From: Ignavibacteriota bacterium
GTDB taxonomy: Bacteria > Bacteroidota > Ignavibacteria > UBA10030 > SZUA-254
Assembly (NCBI GenBank): GCA_016212665.1
Contig: JACREZ010000044.1
Span: 1 to 64,000 of the forward strand
Direction: 5' to 3'
Length of the DNA: 64,000 nt
The notes under the pieces are model-generated. The model was not told where the DNA came from. It saw nothing but the letters and a program-made list of their open reading frames with translations, and did not search any database. Made by a program: the position numbers and the translations under genes. Below are positions 11,873 to 25,146 of the stretch, piece after piece (positions within the stretch are counted from its first letter, which is position 1; the number at the start of each line of letters is the position of its first letter).

Positions 11873-13003
11873 TTAAAGAGCGCTCTTCAAATCCGCGATG
11901 ATATCGTCAACATCCTCGAGCCCGACGGAAATTCTCACCAAGCCATCCGTCACTCCGATTTTCTGTCGTTGCTCATACGGAATAGATGCGTGAGTCATTG
12001 TCGCAGGATGAGAGATGAGTGTTTCCACACCGCCCAAACTTTCTGCTAACGCGCACAACCGGACTCGCTTGAGAAATCTCTTTGCCGCTTCCAAACTTCC
12101 GAGGTCGAACGAAATCATGCCACCGAAGTTTTTCATCTGTCGCTTCGCCAGATGATGTTGCGGATGTTCCGGCAATCCCGGGTAATACACTCGTTTGATT
12201 TTCTTTTGTTTTGATAACCATTGGGCGACTTTCATTGCACTTTCGCCATGTCGTTCCATTCGGACGGCAAGAGTTTTTGTCCCGCGCAGACAAAGCCATG
12301 CATCGAACGGACTGAGAATACCTCCAACAGCTTTTTGGAAGAAACGAAGTCGCTCGGTGATTTTCTTATTGTTGGTGATGACCATTCCACCGAGCATGTC
12401 GCTATGTCCGTTCAGATATTTTGTAAGACTGTGAACGACGACATCGAATCCGCAGTCGAGCGGTCGTTGGAGGTATGGCGTGGCAAATGTGTTATCGCAC
12501 ACGGAGATGAGTTTGTGTTGCTTTGCCAACTTCGCTATCGCTTTCAGGTCGGTGATTTCCATTGTCGGATTCGTTGGCGTCTCGATGAACAACATTTTCG
12601 TGTTCGGTTTGATTGCTTTCCGAACGAGCGGAAGGTTCGTCGTGTCAACAAAATCAAACAGCAAACCGTACTCTTCGAGCACCATTTTTCCGATGCGATA
12701 CGTTCCGCCATACACATTGTGCGATACAAGAATGTGGTCGCCGGGTTTCAGCAATCGAAAAATTGCATCAATCGCCGCCATGCCGGAGCCGAATGCCATT
12801 CCGTCCTTTCCGTTTTCCAGCGCGGCGATGTTCATTTCAAGCGCATCGCGTGTCGGATTGGAAACGCGGGAATACTCATAGCCCTTGTTCTTGCCGAGTT
12901 CTTCCTGCACGTAGGTTGAAGTTAAATGTACCGGCATCATTACTGAACCGGTTGTCGGGTCAGGTTTCTGCCCTGCGTGGATTGCGTTGGTGGAAAAGTT
13001 CAT
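11873..13003 (-). CDS. cystathionine gamma-lyase / gamma-synthase (PLP-dependent)
   Basis: This member of the Cys/Met-metabolism PLP enzyme family has its Schiff-base lysine at K195 in HSLTKYLNGHSD, and YSRVSNPTRD and ETPTNPTM upstream. The family includes cystathionine gamma-synthase, gamma-lyase and beta-lyase, which sequence alone separates poorly. With a cystathionine beta-synthase-like gene 2.7 kb upstream on the same strand, a gamma-lyase completing reverse transsulfuration (homocysteine to cysteine) is favoured. I use the ATG at 13003 (377 residues); a TTG three codons upstream is less likely. Confidence 0.88.
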   Translation of the reverse strand: MNFSTNAIHAGQKPDPTTGSVMMPVHLTSTYVQEELGKNKGYEYSRVSNPTRDALEMNIAALENGKDGMAFGSGMAAIDAIFRLLKPGDHILVSHNVYGGTYRIGKMVLEEYGLLFDFVDTTNLPLVRKAIKPNTKMLFIETPTNPTMEITDLKAIAKLAKQHKLISVCDNTFATPYLQRPLDCGFDVVVHSLTKYLNGHSDMLGGMVITNNKKITERLRFFQKAVGGILSPFDAWLCLRGTKTLAVRMERHGESAMKVAQWLSKQKKIKRVYYPGLPEHPQHHLAKRQMKNFGGMISFDLGSLEAAKRFLKRVRLCALAESLGGVETLISHPATMTHASIPYEQRQKIGVTDGLVRISVGLEDVDDIIADLKSAL

Positions 13004-13047
13004 AATTTGCAATCAATAATAAATAAATCTGCGTACTTAATAATTTG

Positions 13048-13098
13048 GTAAAAAAATAATTAACTGATATTAAGAAACATGAAGTGTTTTAATATCAG
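13048..13098 (-). terminator. terminator of the SIR2-kinase gene
   Basis: On the minus strand, CTGATATTAA pairs with TTAATATCAG (10 bp, 13064-13098), followed by TTAATTATTTTTTT. It lies about 35 nt past the stop of the SIR2-kinase gene and before the cystathionine lyase start, suggesting the kinase gene is its own transcription unit. Confidence 0.7.
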
Positions 13099-13133: not shown

Positions 13134-15392
13134 TTATAATGGTTCGTGTCTTTTCTGTTCAAGAATATTACGGATTTTTTTTAGTAGGTTTTCTGGCTCA
13201 TACGGTTTGGGAAGGAAATCAGAAACTCCCTCATTTAACAAGTCCTGTTTTAATTCTGGTATCAAATAACCACTTACAAAAATTACTCTGACTTCTGAAT
13301 TGATTTTCTTAATTTTTTTGAACACATCGAAACCAGCCATTTTTGGCAAACCCATATCTAAAATAACTAGCTGAATTATATTTTTATATCGTTTGTATTT
13401 TTTATAAGCTTGTTCCCCATCATTTGCACTAATGATTCTATAACCTTGTCCTTTTAATAACCCTGTTACATAATCGGAAAGAAGTCTTTCATCCTCTACA
13501 AATAAAATTGTTTCAGTTCCTGTAAGGACTTTGGTTGAATTATTATTTATTGAATCCTTTTCCGAAACCATTTTCTCTTCTATTGGTAATAGTAATATTA
13601 TAGTGGTACCTTTGTTAAGTTGACTTTGTACGTCGATGTAACCAAAATGCTCCTTAATGATTCCATATACAACAGCTAAGCCCAATCCTGTACCTTTTCC
13701 TATTTCCTTTGTAGTAAAAAAAGGTTCGAAAATCCTGTTTAAAGTAATATCATCCATTCCAATGCCATTATCAATGATTTGAATTGTCAAATATTCAATA
13801 TCTCTTGCGTTGCTAAATTTATTTCTGATTTTTTTTCCTGAGATAGTATTAACATTGATATTTAACGTACCTCCATTTGGCATGGCATCTCTTGCGTTAA
13901 TACATAAATTTAATATTGCTTGTGAAATCTGACTTGGATCTCCATTAATTGGAGGAAGATTATTTTTTATATCTGTTATAATTGAAATGGTTTTTGGAAA
14001 TGTTTCAGACAATAGTTGTACAATTTCTTTAATAAGAGTATGAATATTCAATTGATGGAAGACAGTATCACTTTTTCTTGCAAATGCTAATAATTGTTTG
14101 ACTAGTCCCGTAGCTCTTTCGGCGGCTGTTGTGATAGCTTTTAAAGCCTTTGATTGTTGTTCGTTTATTTTTGTCTTACTAATTAAAGTTGAATAACCTA
14201 TAATAATACCTAAGATATTATTGAAATCATGTGCTACACCACCCGCTAAAGTTCCTAACGATTCCAGCCGTTGTGAATGTAATAGCTGTGATTGCAAAAT
14301 TTTTTCCTCATTATCCTTCCTTTCACCTTCAATGATACTTCTCTCTACTAAATCAACGTGTTCTGGCTTGAATTCTGCCTTATTAATAAAAATTTTGAGA
14401 TATTTTGCTCTCTCGAGTGGTATTGTTGTTTGCATCTGAGTGCAGATACTCTGCTCATGTTCCATTATTTCTTTAGCTCTAGCAACCTCGCGTTTTTCCT
14501 GTGATAGCCACATTTCCCGCGGTATTGAAAGTGTTGCTAAGTCACCACGATATTCTTCAATTTGTTGATTTAAAGAATTTATTACTATGTGTAAATTACG
14601 CTTGCCGTGCTTAGACTCATAGTTTATTATTCTTAAATTATATTTTTCGAGAAAGTACTTAGCTTTAATGGTGCCCGCGTTTGCAATAAATGCAAAGTGT
14701 TGACGTCCATAACCTCTGAAAATTGAGACTTGTTCATTAAGCATAAGATTCAGATCGGGGTCATTAAGCCCGTATCCAATGAACACTAATGTTTTTGTTG
14801 CGGCAATATTGAAAAGAATATTCCGGTAAGCAGAATTTTGATGTAATATCTCCTCATAATCTTTATGTGTCAACACGATTGTATCAATATTTTCGATGTC
14901 CCCATGTAGCTTTAAGATAAAGTATTCTTTTTCGCTTGGTAATTGTGCCAATTTAGCCACATTTTTTTGAGTAATTACAGGTAAATCTTTTTGTAATTTT
15001 GAAAATTTTCGATATGCCTTCTCTAACATTGTATCATAATTAGTAGTTAGTAAGGCAGCAAATGGTAACTGAATAATTTTCTCATGTATAACAGAAGGTT
15101 CGATCGAAGAACAATCAAAAGTTTTTGTCAAAAAATCTCTATATAAATAAGGACGTAAGCGATTTCTACATTCTTCTGCAATTTCTAAAAAAGAGCCTGT
15201 TTTCAAAAGACTATATAATTCATCAGTTTCTTGTTTATTAATAGTAAGGTTAAGTTCGCATTCCTTGATCATCAATTGTATCAAAGATTTCCAATTTGGT
15301 AATCCTATCACAGAAGAAGGTCCTGATCCAATGACCGCTACCGCCTCATTTCTTACAAACGCGTTGATTAAATCTTTAGGAAATAAATTCAT
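13134..15392 (-). CDS. SIR2-like NADase domain fused to histidine kinase and receiver domain
   Basis: This 752-residue protein combines three parts. Residues ~1-285 are a SIR2_2-type domain: IGSGPSSVIGLPNW (21-34), TTNYD (116-120), KLHGD (161-165) and FIGYGLNDPD (204-213). N118 and H163 sit where the catalytic Asn and His of SIR2-like NADases such as ThsA lie. Residues ~290-375 look helical, a linker. Residues ~376-605 form a histidine kinase with H388 (GGVAHDFNNIL), N499, DNGIGM (541-546), FEPFFTTK and GTGLGL. Residues ~628-748 form a receiver with E633/D634, D679 and K729. No transmembrane segment or signal peptide is seen, so it should be cytoplasmic. The gene is clearly AT-richer than its neighbours, sits alone between two transsulfuration genes and has its own terminator. 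The function is not known; NAD+ depletion or NAD-linked signalling controlled by phosphorelay is inference. Confidence 0.88.
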   Translation of the reverse strand: MNLFPKDLINAFVRNEAVAVIGSGPSSVIGLPNWKSLIQLMIKECELNLTINKQETDELYSLLKTGSFLEIAEECRNRLRPYLYRDFLTKTFDCSSIEPSVIHEKIIQLPFAALLTTNYDTMLEKAYRKFSKLQKDLPVITQKNVAKLAQLPSEKEYFILKLHGDIENIDTIVLTHKDYEEILHQNSAYRNILFNIAATKTLVFIGYGLNDPDLNLMLNEQVSIFRGYGRQHFAFIANAGTIKAKYFLEKYNLRIINYESKHGKRNLHIVINSLNQQIEEYRGDLATLSIPREMWLSQEKREVARAKEIMEHEQSICTQMQTTIPLERAKYLKIFINKAEFKPEHVDLVERSIIEGERKDNEEKILQSQLLHSQRLESLGTLAGGVAHDFNNILGIIIGYSTLISKTKINEQQSKALKAITTAAERATGLVKQLLAFARKSDTVFHQLNIHTLIKEIVQLLSETFPKTISIITDIKNNLPPINGDPSQISQAILNLCINARDAMPNGGTLNINVNTISGKKIRNKFSNARDIEYLTIQIIDNGIGMDDITLNRIFEPFFTTKEIGKGTGLGLAVVYGIIKEHFGYIDVQSQLNKGTTIILLLPIEEKMVSEKDSINNNSTKVLTGTETILFVEDERLLSDYVTGLLKGQGYRIISANDGEQAYKKYKRYKNIIQLVILDMGLPKMAGFDVFKKIKKINSEVRVIFVSGYLIPELKQDLLNEGVSDFLPKPYEPENLLKKIRNILEQKRHEPL

Positions 15393-15685
15393 AGTATACC
15401 TATTTATTGTATTGAACTGATTTGTTTTATCATTACGAATAATTATTGAGATATTGTTTAACTTCTTTTGCTAATTTGTTTCTTCTTTTTATTCTATATA
15501 TTCTTTGATTTTAATAATAAGGATTTGTGTTCTGCCCGAAGTTCGATACTAAGTGTAACTTGTGGCAAGTTATAATTCTCATATCTTAACTCCTTAAATG
15601 TAATTTTTGATTGATTAGCAAAACATCCAATAAGAAAATATTCAGATATGATACTAAAATCCTTTATGAAATAGCACTTAACAAA
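15393..15685. other. AT-rich upstream region of the SIR2-kinase gene
   Basis: There are about 290 bases with no believable gene. They share the low GC of the SIR2-kinase gene, so the foreign-looking segment extends close to the stop of the cystathionine beta-synthase gene. The promoter of the kinase gene should lie here; no clear consensus was seen. Confidence 0.5.
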
Positions 15686-17080
15686 TCATCTCGCGAGATA
15701 TTCAATCACATCATACCGCGTCAATATTCCAGCCAACTTATGATTGTCTTCAATAAGTACAGCCGAATCTTTTTTCTTCAGGAAATCTATTGCATGCTCG
15801 ATTGGAGAATCCATGCCGATGGTCGGGAAGGCAGGTTCCATCATTTCTTTCACAAGTTTATCCAGCGAAGAACTATTTTCAAGCACTGTTGACATCAGGT
15901 CATTATCAGTCACAGTCCCGATTGCCCGTCCTTTTTCAATTACCGGTAATTGAGATACATCATGCTGTTTGAATAAATCGAGAGCGGCACGCACAGTCGT
16001 ATTCGGTTCAACAGCGACGAGTTGCTGTACGTTTCTCGGTTTCGATTGAAGCACAAAACGCACCGTAATTCGGTCGGGCATGAGGAATCCGTTCTCTCTC
16101 ATCCAATCATCGTTGTACAATTTGCTGAGGTACCGCTCGCCCGTGTCGGGAAGGAGAATTACCATCACTTCGTTTTCTTGCATCCGGTCTGCATATTTTA
16201 GAGCGCCTGCAAGCGCAGTTCCCGCCGAACCGCCGACAAACATTCCTTCTTCCCGCGTCAATCGCCGCGCCATCATAAACGCTTCTTTGTCTGTAACCTC
16301 GACCATCGCATCAACGACATCAAAATCAATAACGCCTGGAACCCAATCCTGACCGATGCCCTCAACCTTGTAAGGTTTTCCATCACCTGTTTGGCTTTTA
16401 TTCTTGTCATAAAAAACATCCCGTAATATAGAACCGCGCGGGTCTGTACCAACGACTTTGATGTTGGGATTTTTCTCTTTCAAAAATTTTCCGACACCCG
16501 TAACTGTTCCTCCTGTTCCAAGTCCGCCGACGAAATAATCAATCTGTCCGCCGGTTTGTTCCCAAATTTCAGGACCGGTGGTTTTGTAATGCGCTTCAGG
16601 GTTTTTCGGATTAAAATATTGATTAGCAAGAATTGAGTTGGGAGTTTCACGAACAATACGCTTGGCAACTTCTGTGTAACTTTCAGGCGAATCATGCGGG
16701 ACAGCAGTAGGTGTGACAATGACTTCTGCACCATACGCTTTCAACAAACGGATTTTTTCCGAACTCATTTTGTCTGGGAGAGTGAAGACGCACTTGTATC
16801 CCTTGATTGCCGCAGCAAGCACAAGTCCGACACCCGTATTGCCGGAAGTTGATTCGACGATTGTTCCGCCCGGGCGTAAGCGACCCTCGCGTTCCGCATC
16901 TTCAATGATGTCCAAGCCGATTCGGTCTTTCACCGAACCGCCCGGATTAAAAAATTCTACTTTGGCAAAATAGTGTCCTTTGAATCCCCGTGTTATTTTA
17001 TTCAGTTTTACAAGCGGCGTTTTGCCGATTGTTCCGAGGATGTTTTCGTGATGATTGATTTTTGAGATATCTGTTAGCAT
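15686..17080 (-). CDS. cystathionine beta-synthase / cysteine synthase with C-terminal CBS pair
   Basis: This fold-type II PLP enzyme has its Schiff-base lysine at K51 (NPGGSVKDR), STSGNTG at ~79-85 and the phosphate-binding GGLGTGGT at ~189-196. Two CBS domains fill residues ~345-464 (AIGTVTDND, LAGILTRYDVIEYL). A 464-residue catalytic + CBS-pair layout matches cystathionine beta-synthase of bacteria and eukaryotes better than CysK. The CBS pair may sense an adenosyl ligand. Together with the gene at 11873-13003 it would convert homocysteine + serine to cysteine. Confidence 0.88.
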   Translation of the reverse strand: MLTDISKINHHENILGTIGKTPLVKLNKITRGFKGHYFAKVEFFNPGGSVKDRIGLDIIEDAEREGRLRPGGTIVESTSGNTGVGLVLAAAIKGYKCVFTLPDKMSSEKIRLLKAYGAEVIVTPTAVPHDSPESYTEVAKRIVRETPNSILANQYFNPKNPEAHYKTTGPEIWEQTGGQIDYFVGGLGTGGTVTGVGKFLKEKNPNIKVVGTDPRGSILRDVFYDKNKSQTGDGKPYKVEGIGQDWVPGVIDFDVVDAMVEVTDKEAFMMARRLTREEGMFVGGSAGTALAGALKYADRMQENEVMVILLPDTGERYLSKLYNDDWMRENGFLMPDRITVRFVLQSKPRNVQQLVAVEPNTTVRAALDLFKQHDVSQLPVIEKGRAIGTVTDNDLMSTVLENSSSLDKLVKEMMEPAFPTIGMDSPIEHAIDFLKKKDSAVLIEDNHKLAGILTRYDVIEYLAR

Positions 17081-24161: not shown

Positions 24162-24346
24162 AACGTCGTGAATTCATCAAGGAATTAGAAAAACATGGAT
24201 GCATTCTTAAGCGACATGGTTCGAGACACGATATTTATTACAATCCGACATTGCATAAAAGCGCGCCGGTTCCTCGTCATCAAGAACTTGCCGACTCGCT
24301 CTGTACATTGATTCGCAGGCAACTTGGTATCAACGACAAACTATGA
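24158..24346 (+). CDS. hicA: HicA-family mRNA interferase toxin
   Basis: This 62-residue dsRBD-like protein has KRREFIKELEKHGCILKRHGSRHDIY and VPRHQELADSLCTLIRRQLGI. The His in the GSRHD segment is the expected catalytic residue. The start is GTG within a GTGA overlap with hicB. Gene order is antitoxin then toxin. Confidence 0.88.
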   Translation: MKRREFIKELEKHGCILKRHGSRHDIYYNPTLHKSAPVPRHQELADSLCTLIRRQLGINDKL

Positions 24347-25146
24347 GGAATTCACTTTTGTATTCAAAAGATAGACGAAGAATTATTATAAGCATACTCT
24401 TTGTTCTTCTTAATTATTTCCCTTGTTTTTCACAGTACGATAGCACACATGTTTTGCTAAAGAGTGGGCAAGAGATGAATGTTCTTATTTCAAAAGTTGA
24501 ACTATGGGGTTTTACTTTGAGTGATGAGCGGTTGTTACTCTTCAAGGTACTTGATGAGGTGATTACACATGATACGATGCTCGTCCAACAAGTACGAAAT
24601 GTAACGGATAGTGTAGGTGTAATAAAAGAAGCAAACATGTGGAGAATAGATTTTCGACATGCAAAAATTCGTCCTTTCGAATCTTCTTCTAAAAGTTTAA
24701 TTTTGGTTCGATCAGCTTCTCTCAATATTTCTGCAGATTTTTCCATTAACTACAATTTTCAAATTGATGTTTCTCCATCCGATTTTGAGTACCTCGTATT
24801 TTCAACTGGTTTTACAGCAGGTTCTACAATTGCAGGTGCAAATCAGACTTGGGGTGCCTATCTCGGCGCAGGATTAATTTTGGTTTTTGAATATCATTCT
24901 TTTTTAGTGACCATAAATTATGGGGAAACAAATATCCAAGGAACTTATCGTTTCGATATCAACGAAAAGGTAACTAGGACGGAACGAAGCCCGGGATATC
25001 TAAAAGCTGAAGCGCATATTTATGGAAATTCTGACAGTAAAATGTTGATTACTCTTGGTTCGTATAGATTTTTTTCAAAATCGGGTTGGGGGAACAAGGA
25101 AACCTTTTGGGGATTTAAATTGGGAATAGGATTGAAATTCTTTTAA
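24343..25146 (+). CDS. secreted outer-membrane barrel-like protein coupled to hicA
   Basis: This 267-residue protein has a hydrophobic stretch at residues ~13-30 ending FSQ, a likely signal peptide. The second half (from ~130) is rich in alternating aromatic strands and the protein ends LGIGLKFF, with the C-terminal Phe typical of barrels. Its ATG overlaps the hicA stop by 4 nt. The family was not recognised. AT content is slightly higher than in purB. Confidence 0.6.
   Translation: MRNSLLYSKDRRRIIISILFVLLNYFPCFSQYDSTHVLLKSGQEMNVLISKVELWGFTLSDERLLLFKVLDEVITHDTMLVQQVRNVTDSVGVIKEANMWRIDFRHAKIRPFESSSKSLILVRSASLNISADFSINYNFQIDVSPSDFEYLVFSTGFTAGSTIAGANQTWGAYLGAGLILVFEYHSFLVTINYGETNIQGTYRFDINEKVTRTERSPGYLKAEAHIYGNSDSKMLITLGSYRFFSKSGWGNKETFWGFKLGIGLKFF

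Follow-up and report, generated by a model that had tools for sequence, protein, structure and literature searches.

A SIR2-like domain joined to a histidine kinase and receiver in an Ignavibacteriota bacterium: a candidate phosphorelay-controlled NAD+-hydrolyzing effector

In a 64,000-nucleotide stretch of DNA from an Ignavibacteriota bacterium (assembly GCA_016212665.1, contig JACREZ010000044.1, positions 1 to 64,000; hereafter the window) a single minus-strand gene at 13134..15392 encodes a SIR2-like domain, a histidine kinase and a receiver in one chain. This is a real and rare architecture among SIR2-effector proteins. We favor a reading, with a rough probability of 0.46, in which the gene is an acquired single-gene NAD+-hydrolyzing effector governed by a hybrid histidine kinase, and in which it would have arisen from SIR2–nSTAND1–kinase–receiver proteins by loss of the nucleoside triphosphatase (NTPase). 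The argument draws on the predicted fold and active site of the SIR2 part, on a collinear relative from another phylum that retains the NTPase, and on the history of the kinase. Loci and genomes of the comparison are denoted by L and G numbers.

Results

The open reading frame (ORF) begins with ATG and runs for 752 residues without an internal stop, in the order SIR2, nSTAND1-like tail, HisKA, HATPase_c and receiver. All four Pfam matches lie above their curated cut-offs (SIR2_2 1.2e-30, HisKA 4.7e-10, HATPase_c 5.3e-21 and Response_reg 2.1e-22), with SIR2_2 at 106.9 bits against a cut-off of 24.5, and a match to four domains is far beyond chance. All features of the gene lie on the minus strand. 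The predicted SIR2-like NADase domain spans residues 1–285 (14538..15392), with a Pfam SIR2_2 core at residues 113–256 (14625-15056); its motifs IGSGPSSVIG, TTNYD, KLHGD and GYGLNDPD start at residues 21, 116, 161 and 206, and they contain the predicted catalytic residues N118 (15039..15041) and H163 (14904..14906). The HisKA dimerization and phosphoacceptor domain occupies residues 379–440 (14073..14258; H388 at 14229-14231) and is followed by the HATPase_c catalytic domain at residues 484–605 (13578..13943), with N499, DNGIGM at 541 (D541) and GTGLGL at 567–572. The receiver covers residues 629–741 (13170..13508) and has D679 (13356-13358) and K729, and in addition E633, D634 and S707. A preliminary description, made from the letters alone, had placed the SIR2-like domain, kinase and receiver in one 752-residue frame; the frame is intact and every motif it named stands at the residue given.

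The SIR2 part resembles defense NADases in sequence and in predicted structure. In PADLOC the best match of the window protein is ThsA (2.6e-32), followed by LmuA and Dsr2, and the best solved structure by sequence is again ThsA (6lhx, 2.3e-18), with N118 and H163 falling on ThsA N112 and H152. According to the ThsA study (PMC7272460), mutating N112 or H152 abolishes NAD+ cleavage, although H152A also disturbs oligomerization. An AlphaFold2 model of residues 1–320, built from 41 sequences, has a predicted local distance difference test score (pLDDT) of 88.6 and a predicted TM-score (pTM) of 0.83. VIA-align places this model closest to DSR2 (Z 27.1 over 255 residues, root-mean-square deviation 2.4), then to ThsA (Z 24.7), a KomBC chain (24.4), KomC (23.9) and human FAM118B (22.0), and the top rows of a Foldseek search are likewise DSR2, ThsA and KomBC. 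Among 131 homologous domains the N118-equivalent Asn is kept in all and the H163-equivalent His in 129; of 36 further SIR2 rows, partly drawn from the same proteins, 34 retain the Asn and 33 the His, and in one (L289) only the His is replaced. The defense-NADase fold and catalytic residues that the preliminary description had proposed are thus borne out by prediction. A mixed alignment of full-length proteins for AlphaFold2 wrongly matched the SIR2 rows to the kinase and was discarded.

One relative carries the same parts and an additional one. It is a 1096-residue protein at L293:1544-4831, minus strand, from an Acidobacteria genome (G830; the phylum of L054), whose Pfam order is SIR2_2, nSTAND1 (2.3e-49, residues 299–666), HisKA, HATPase_c and Response_reg. 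The two proteins are collinear, with 48% identity over residues 5–278 and 36% over residues 293–743. Between these two stretches the relative has an NTPase that is absent from the window protein, in which no nSTAND match was found at E up to 1. The relative keeps TTNYD and KLHG together with the catalytic motifs of kinase and receiver (by eye). Upstream of it on the same strand lie genes for an HSDR_N+RAMA protein, a weak TIR-effector match, HsdS and HsdM (MTase_I 8.9e-230), and beyond HsdM a protein without a match, a PDC-M19B candidate and a DUF488 protein. This is a restriction-modification (R-M) locus, which gives the relative defense company; one R-M-neighbored locus alone does not prove a defense role.

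The connector between the SIR2 domain and the kinase of the window protein (residues 293–361, 14310..14516) is probably helical and, by alignment with the relative, apparently homologous to the C-terminal tail of its nSTAND1 module. Over residues 293–352, 26 of 60 positions are identical to a stretch of the relative that starts within the final 18 residues matched to nSTAND1. In two proteins that have no kinase (L297 and L298) the stretch after an HD...W motif aligns with the connector, and a profile of their tails scores 25.2 bits against the relative's tail, a value reached by none of 500 shuffles (maximum 7.0). A second AlphaFold2 model gives a helical connector at low confidence (pLDDT about 50; pTM 0.42). 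Because the connector resembles an nSTAND1 tail, the window protein probably stems from a SIR2–STAND–kinase protein in which the NTPase disappeared while the tail was retained, a reading that leans mostly on the relative as intermediate; events in the opposite order are less likely. The preliminary description had missed this nSTAND1-like tail, and its interpretation is supported in part, for fold, residues and rarity, joined now by an R-M-neighbored relative.

A different identity for residues 290–360, the C-terminal half of a PAS domain, had been suggested by MAFFT alignments with PAS-kinases and was dropped: a PAS profile scores −0.1 bits there, with 339 of 500 shuffles as high, it fits neither the window connector nor the relative's tail, and the second model is helical instead. 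The kinase-free proteins L297 (1827-4952) and L298 (2586-5459), both from the phylum of L119, Anaerolineae, have the order SIR2_2–nSTAND1–HEAT and hydrophobic C-terminal stretches (by eye). Their catalytic motifs are replaced by TTCYD/KMLG and TTRFD/KLQG, and their SIR2 domains may be inactive or ligand-binding.

The kinase-receiver half has a history of its own. In NCBIfam it comes closest to CckA models, every one of these matches falling far short of its cut-off. The same genome holds 63 kinase or receiver matches, its own gene included, and other hybrid kinases there are up to 48% identical. With at most four candidates scored per genome, a search of a sample of 395 genomes of the phylum gave kinase matches at E <=1e-112 in 10 genomes (own included), 43–48% identical, eight of them from the same order or nearer and two from the same class. 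In a maximum-likelihood tree of 49 kinase-receiver rows the window kinase clusters with 17 others, all from its own order or class (a group of 18, support 100/99), and the kinase of the relative falls in a separate group (99/94); three additional kinases from the genome that holds the window (L006, L007, L008) lie outside the group of 18. The rows of this tree are best matches with few kinases from the relative's phylum, its root is arbitrary, and the window row deviates in composition, which leaves its exact sister unsure. Because kinases of different lineages stand on the same SIR2-plus-tail, the kinase-receiver cassette was exchanged or fused twice. Such repeated use at the same place argues against a chance fusion and suggests that the kinase-receiver part is needed.

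Fusions of this kind are uncommon in what was searched: a domain search of the loci fetched gave one other, the SIR2–nSTAND1–kinase–receiver protein in L293. Among 100 relatives, the own genome included, three have a SIR2 match and only that of the window is fused to a kinase. Across the 395 genomes sampled from the phylum, with at most five candidates scored per genome, SIR2 matches occur in 25 (own included), and only the window's locus among those fetched has an in-frame kinase; loci from these genome searches hold about 1500 bases on each side, so that a kinase farther from the SIR2 domain would escape. Samples from three other phyla gave SIR2 matches in 13 of 277 genomes (Acidobacteria, the phylum of L054), 15 of 299 (Proteobacteria, that of L074) and 4 of 281 (Anaerolineae, that of L119), and one of 33 loci from these samples, that of the relative, has an in-frame kinase. 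The phylum of a Hyalangium locus (L045) gave matches in 109 of 195 genomes, often only by way of an H-box in the query, and none of 30 fetched loci was fused; three of these were H-box-type kinase matches, and with at most nine candidates scored per genome SIR2 genes were possibly crowded out. A pattern scan of genome contigs with two short motifs found SIR2 relatives encoded in 99 of 256 stretches, none of the best 80 fused to a kinase. The 27 genomes nearest to the relative held no second fusion; three of 28 matched (own included), the others with SIR2 and nSTAND1 in separate proteins.

Mobile elements gave a similar picture. On plasmids, none of the best 5000 records covers 80% of the window protein in one place, and the count was 0 of 4005 matching records with the relative as query. 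Scans of viral contigs resting on few short motifs yielded no SIR2 relative, either with the window query or with the query plus the relative, and SIR2 matches appear in two of 50,697 phage records, at E 4e-10 and 1e-6. Judged by title and start of abstract among the literature matches listed, no description of a SIR2–kinase fusion was recognized in a search that left bioRxiv and most subscription papers outside. PMC7159879 reports no histidine kinase domains in its vWA-associated effectors. HATPase and REC appear among the domains of predicted defense systems in a figure legend of PMC13092281, and a related system may be there.

The gene was, by its composition and setting, horizontally acquired, apparently alone, into a housekeeping region. 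Its G+C content (GC) is 0.321, and 0.243 at third codon positions (GC3), against 0.436 for the window, and its two halves are alike (0.311 and 0.324). Upstream lies a gene with PALP and CBS domains, of the cystathionine beta-synthase type (15686..17080, minus strand), and downstream one for a Cys_Met_Meta_PP enzyme of the cystathionine gamma-lyase type (11873..13012, minus strand), both named by Pfam. These are 2673 bases apart here and at most about 310 in all five relatives of the genus or family in which both were seen (L156-L160; one of the same genus, four of the same family); in four loci of the same order (L161, L162, L163, L165) the gap is about 290 to 1120 bases. In L164 the second flanking gene was not seen in the stretch, and 5 of 17 compared genomes had no match to the first. 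The AT-rich composition and the separation of two genes that adjoin in relatives together argue for acquisition. Short repeats around the gene include no clear target-site duplication or mobile-element end, and comparison with the same-genus genome gave no base-precise empty site. Six of 10 flanking proteins are named by Pfam as housekeeping, so that locus evidence for defense comes from the relative alone: the defense-island context that the preliminary description had raised for homologs applies to the relative, beside type I R-M genes, and not to the window gene itself.

Just 3′ of the stop codon an AT-rich inverted repeat of 15 nucleotides with a 5-nucleotide loop (13064..13098, 87% complementary; no strand assigned) is a possible terminator, which the terminator scan did not report. 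That scan gave one terminator-like site inside the gene against 1.1 expected, and a promoter scan gave 19 sites against 14.3 expected (standard deviation 3.5); we claim neither terminator nor promoter from them. In the AT-rich region upstream (15393-15685) a GGAG motif precedes, by eye, a short ORF of some 23 codons, a possible leader. A second AT-rich ORF in the window (24343-25146, GC 0.353) encodes 267 residues and is without a match in Pfam (1e-5) or PHROG (1e-3). Elsewhere in the same genome (G000, contigs C5 and C32) there are two further SIR2_2 matches, L040 and L041, one of them weak and with an internal stop.

The searches also brought up SIR2 domains in other company. L045 and L046, the nearest SIR2 relatives in the genome-contig scan, have, like L069 and L081, SIR2_2 genes followed by CHAT protease-like domains (by Pfam in three of the four, by eye in L045). 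A protein from the phylum of L045 (L305, 4537-8001) combines numerous WD40 repeats with a SIR2_2 domain at its C terminus, whose GSGLS and GYGMNDP variants recur in L132-L136. In a Saprospiraceae locus (L088, 5950-8541) SIR2_2 shares a frame with weak GAF matches below the Pfam cut-off. By eye, SIR2_2 is followed by a receiver-like C-terminal stretch in L140 (1009-2340) and L151 (1165-2793), with no Pfam receiver at 1e-3, and in L016 a SIR2 domain precedes an in-frame stretch like a Ser/Thr protein kinase (GRVYKA...VAVKI).

Discussion

Because the relative adjoins restriction genes, the window protein is probably a defense protein switched by histidine phosphorylation. Defense is its most likely role, and gating of the SIR2 domain by phosphate is plausible. 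In the model that we favor, the HisKA helices would dimerize the protein, and the region between the SIR2 and kinase domains (residues ~293-385) would hold the two SIR2 domains apart and inactive. A trigger would alter the state of the kinase, and phosphate would pass from H388 to D679, or leave D679. The changed arrangement of kinase and receiver could then free the SIR2 domains to pair or oligomerize, as in ThsA, KomC or DSR2, and the freed domains would hydrolyze NAD+, bringing growth and phage production to a stop. NADase activity, phosphotransfer, gating and its direction, and the defense role are inferred in this model. The resemblance to defense NADases, the kept residues of kinase and receiver, and an effector-first order like that of STAND proteins are consistent with this model.

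Several observations weigh against it. Pro25, in the Gly-rich loop of the SIR2 domain, is found in none of the 131 homologs, and at the position of Gly208 all 40 nearest homologs have Ser. A SIR2 site made degenerate by loss of this Ser was considered and dropped: Gly is present in 19 of the 131 broader homologs, and we therefore do not count Gly208 as a loss of activity. In two SIR2–nSTAND1–HEAT proteins more distant from the window protein, L297/L292 and L298/L290, both catalytic SIR2 residues are replaced, so that SIR2 in such an architecture can lose catalysis. Compared directly with the window stretch, the tail profile that recognizes the relative scores 5.8 bits, and five of 500 shuffles score as high (maximum 9.3). 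None of the 10 flanking proteins matches PADLOC at 1e-5. The window protein lacks the relative's NTPase switch and, by its domain matches, has no dedicated sensor domain left. Finally, only two SIR2–kinase fusions came to light in this analysis.

Some of these points would fit a protein in which the SIR2 domain is the input, binding NAD+, ADP-ribose or a related nucleotide and setting the kinase, with phosphate passing from the receiver to an unlinked phosphotransfer protein and on to a distant regulator. The SIR2 domain stands at the N terminus, the place of the sensor domains in similar hybrid kinases (many PAS-like, by eye); P25 and G208 are unusual in its nucleotide loop regions; the catalytic pair is lost in two SIR2–nSTAND1 proteins; and the genome has many kinase or receiver genes. 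We nevertheless regard a sensory role as unlikely, given that both the window protein and its close relative retain the catalytic Asn and His, that the neighbors in sequence and fold are NADase effectors, that in the relative a STAND switch separates SIR2 from the kinase and R-M genes lie alongside, and that the effector comes first, the rule for STAND proteins (PMC12931631). The kinase-receiver half might also be a mere dimer scaffold, or a phage sensor at the place of a STAND C-terminal sensor, with phosphotransfer not gating the SIR2 domain. HEAT repeats hold the same place in the SIR2–nSTAND1 proteins L297 and L298, which marks it as that of a sensor, and two different kinase lineages occupy it; yet both fusions carry catalytic motifs in kinase and receiver that a mere scaffold would not need, and we consider this rather improbable.

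The poorest prospect is a decaying or accidental remnant, a SIR2–STAND–kinase gene that, stripped of its NTPase, was recombined with a kinase from the host's order or class, with no selected function. The architecture occurs once among the sampled relatives, lacks the NTPase, is AT-rich and lies in housekeeping surroundings, and in the tree its kinase half sits among those of its own order and class. Against decay stand 752 codons without a stop and the kept active-site motifs of SIR2, kinase and receiver. Overall we prefer the model of an acquired, phosphorelay-controlled NAD+-hydrolyzing effector. A broader proposal is possible, if short of even odds: proteins of the type SIR2–(nSTAND1)–HisKA–HATPase–REC would form an undescribed class of immune NADases with a His-Asp phosphorelay switch in one chain, workable without the NTPase, and with a cassette exchanged between lineages. 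If this holds, an immune effector that destroys NAD+ would be under the direct control of a classical two-component phosphorelay within one chain, joining two large fields. Substitutions at H388, D679 and N118 would allow sensing, relay and killing to be told apart in that chain, and the two proteins, one carrying the STAND module and one lacking it, would be a natural experiment on what the NTPase contributes.

Comparison with known systems

The HisKA–HATPase–receiver half is like that of CckA-like hybrid histidine kinases, with the H-box His, the N, G1 and G2 boxes and the receiver Asp and Lys all present, but the window protein has an N-terminal SIR2 domain where the sensory domain stands in those kinases. 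Detocs is a precedent in how it works, compared here by description. It is a defense family with two-component parts and a nucleotide-destroying effector, as described in PMC11249213; Detocs has three genes and, in its best-described case, an ATP-cleaving PNP effector, whereas the window protein is one gene with a SIR2 domain. None of the window protein's 17 PADLOC matches is named Detocs, the content of that library for Detocs being unchecked.

The other likenesses concern the SIR2 part. KomBC matches the SIR2 model in fold, and of three annotated plasmid loci two carry SIR2 as a gene of its own next to a DUF262 gene; KomC is an unfused SIR2 protein that has a partner, and the window protein is one fused chain. 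DSR2, the best fold match, has a long helical/HEAT C-terminus in place of the kinase and receiver. Thoeris ThsA is the best match by sequence in both PADLOC and the PDB and shares the catalytic pair; unlike it, the window protein has no SLOG/STALD match at E up to 1 (L100 shows that STALD is detectable), and, with no PADLOC match among its 10 flanking proteins, no thsB lies beside its gene. STAND immune proteins have a standard order of effector, NTPase and sensor, with the effector N-terminal (PMC12931631). Avs5 and other SIR2-STAND proteins share the N-terminal SIR2_2 domain, which in the relative is likewise followed by a STAND NTPase and in the window protein by a stretch like a STAND tail. 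By the same source Avs5 differs in having nSTAND3 and C-terminal repeat sensors, where the relative has nSTAND1 and a kinase-receiver. The titles of the solved structures describe ThsA, KomBC and Avs5 as helical assemblies.

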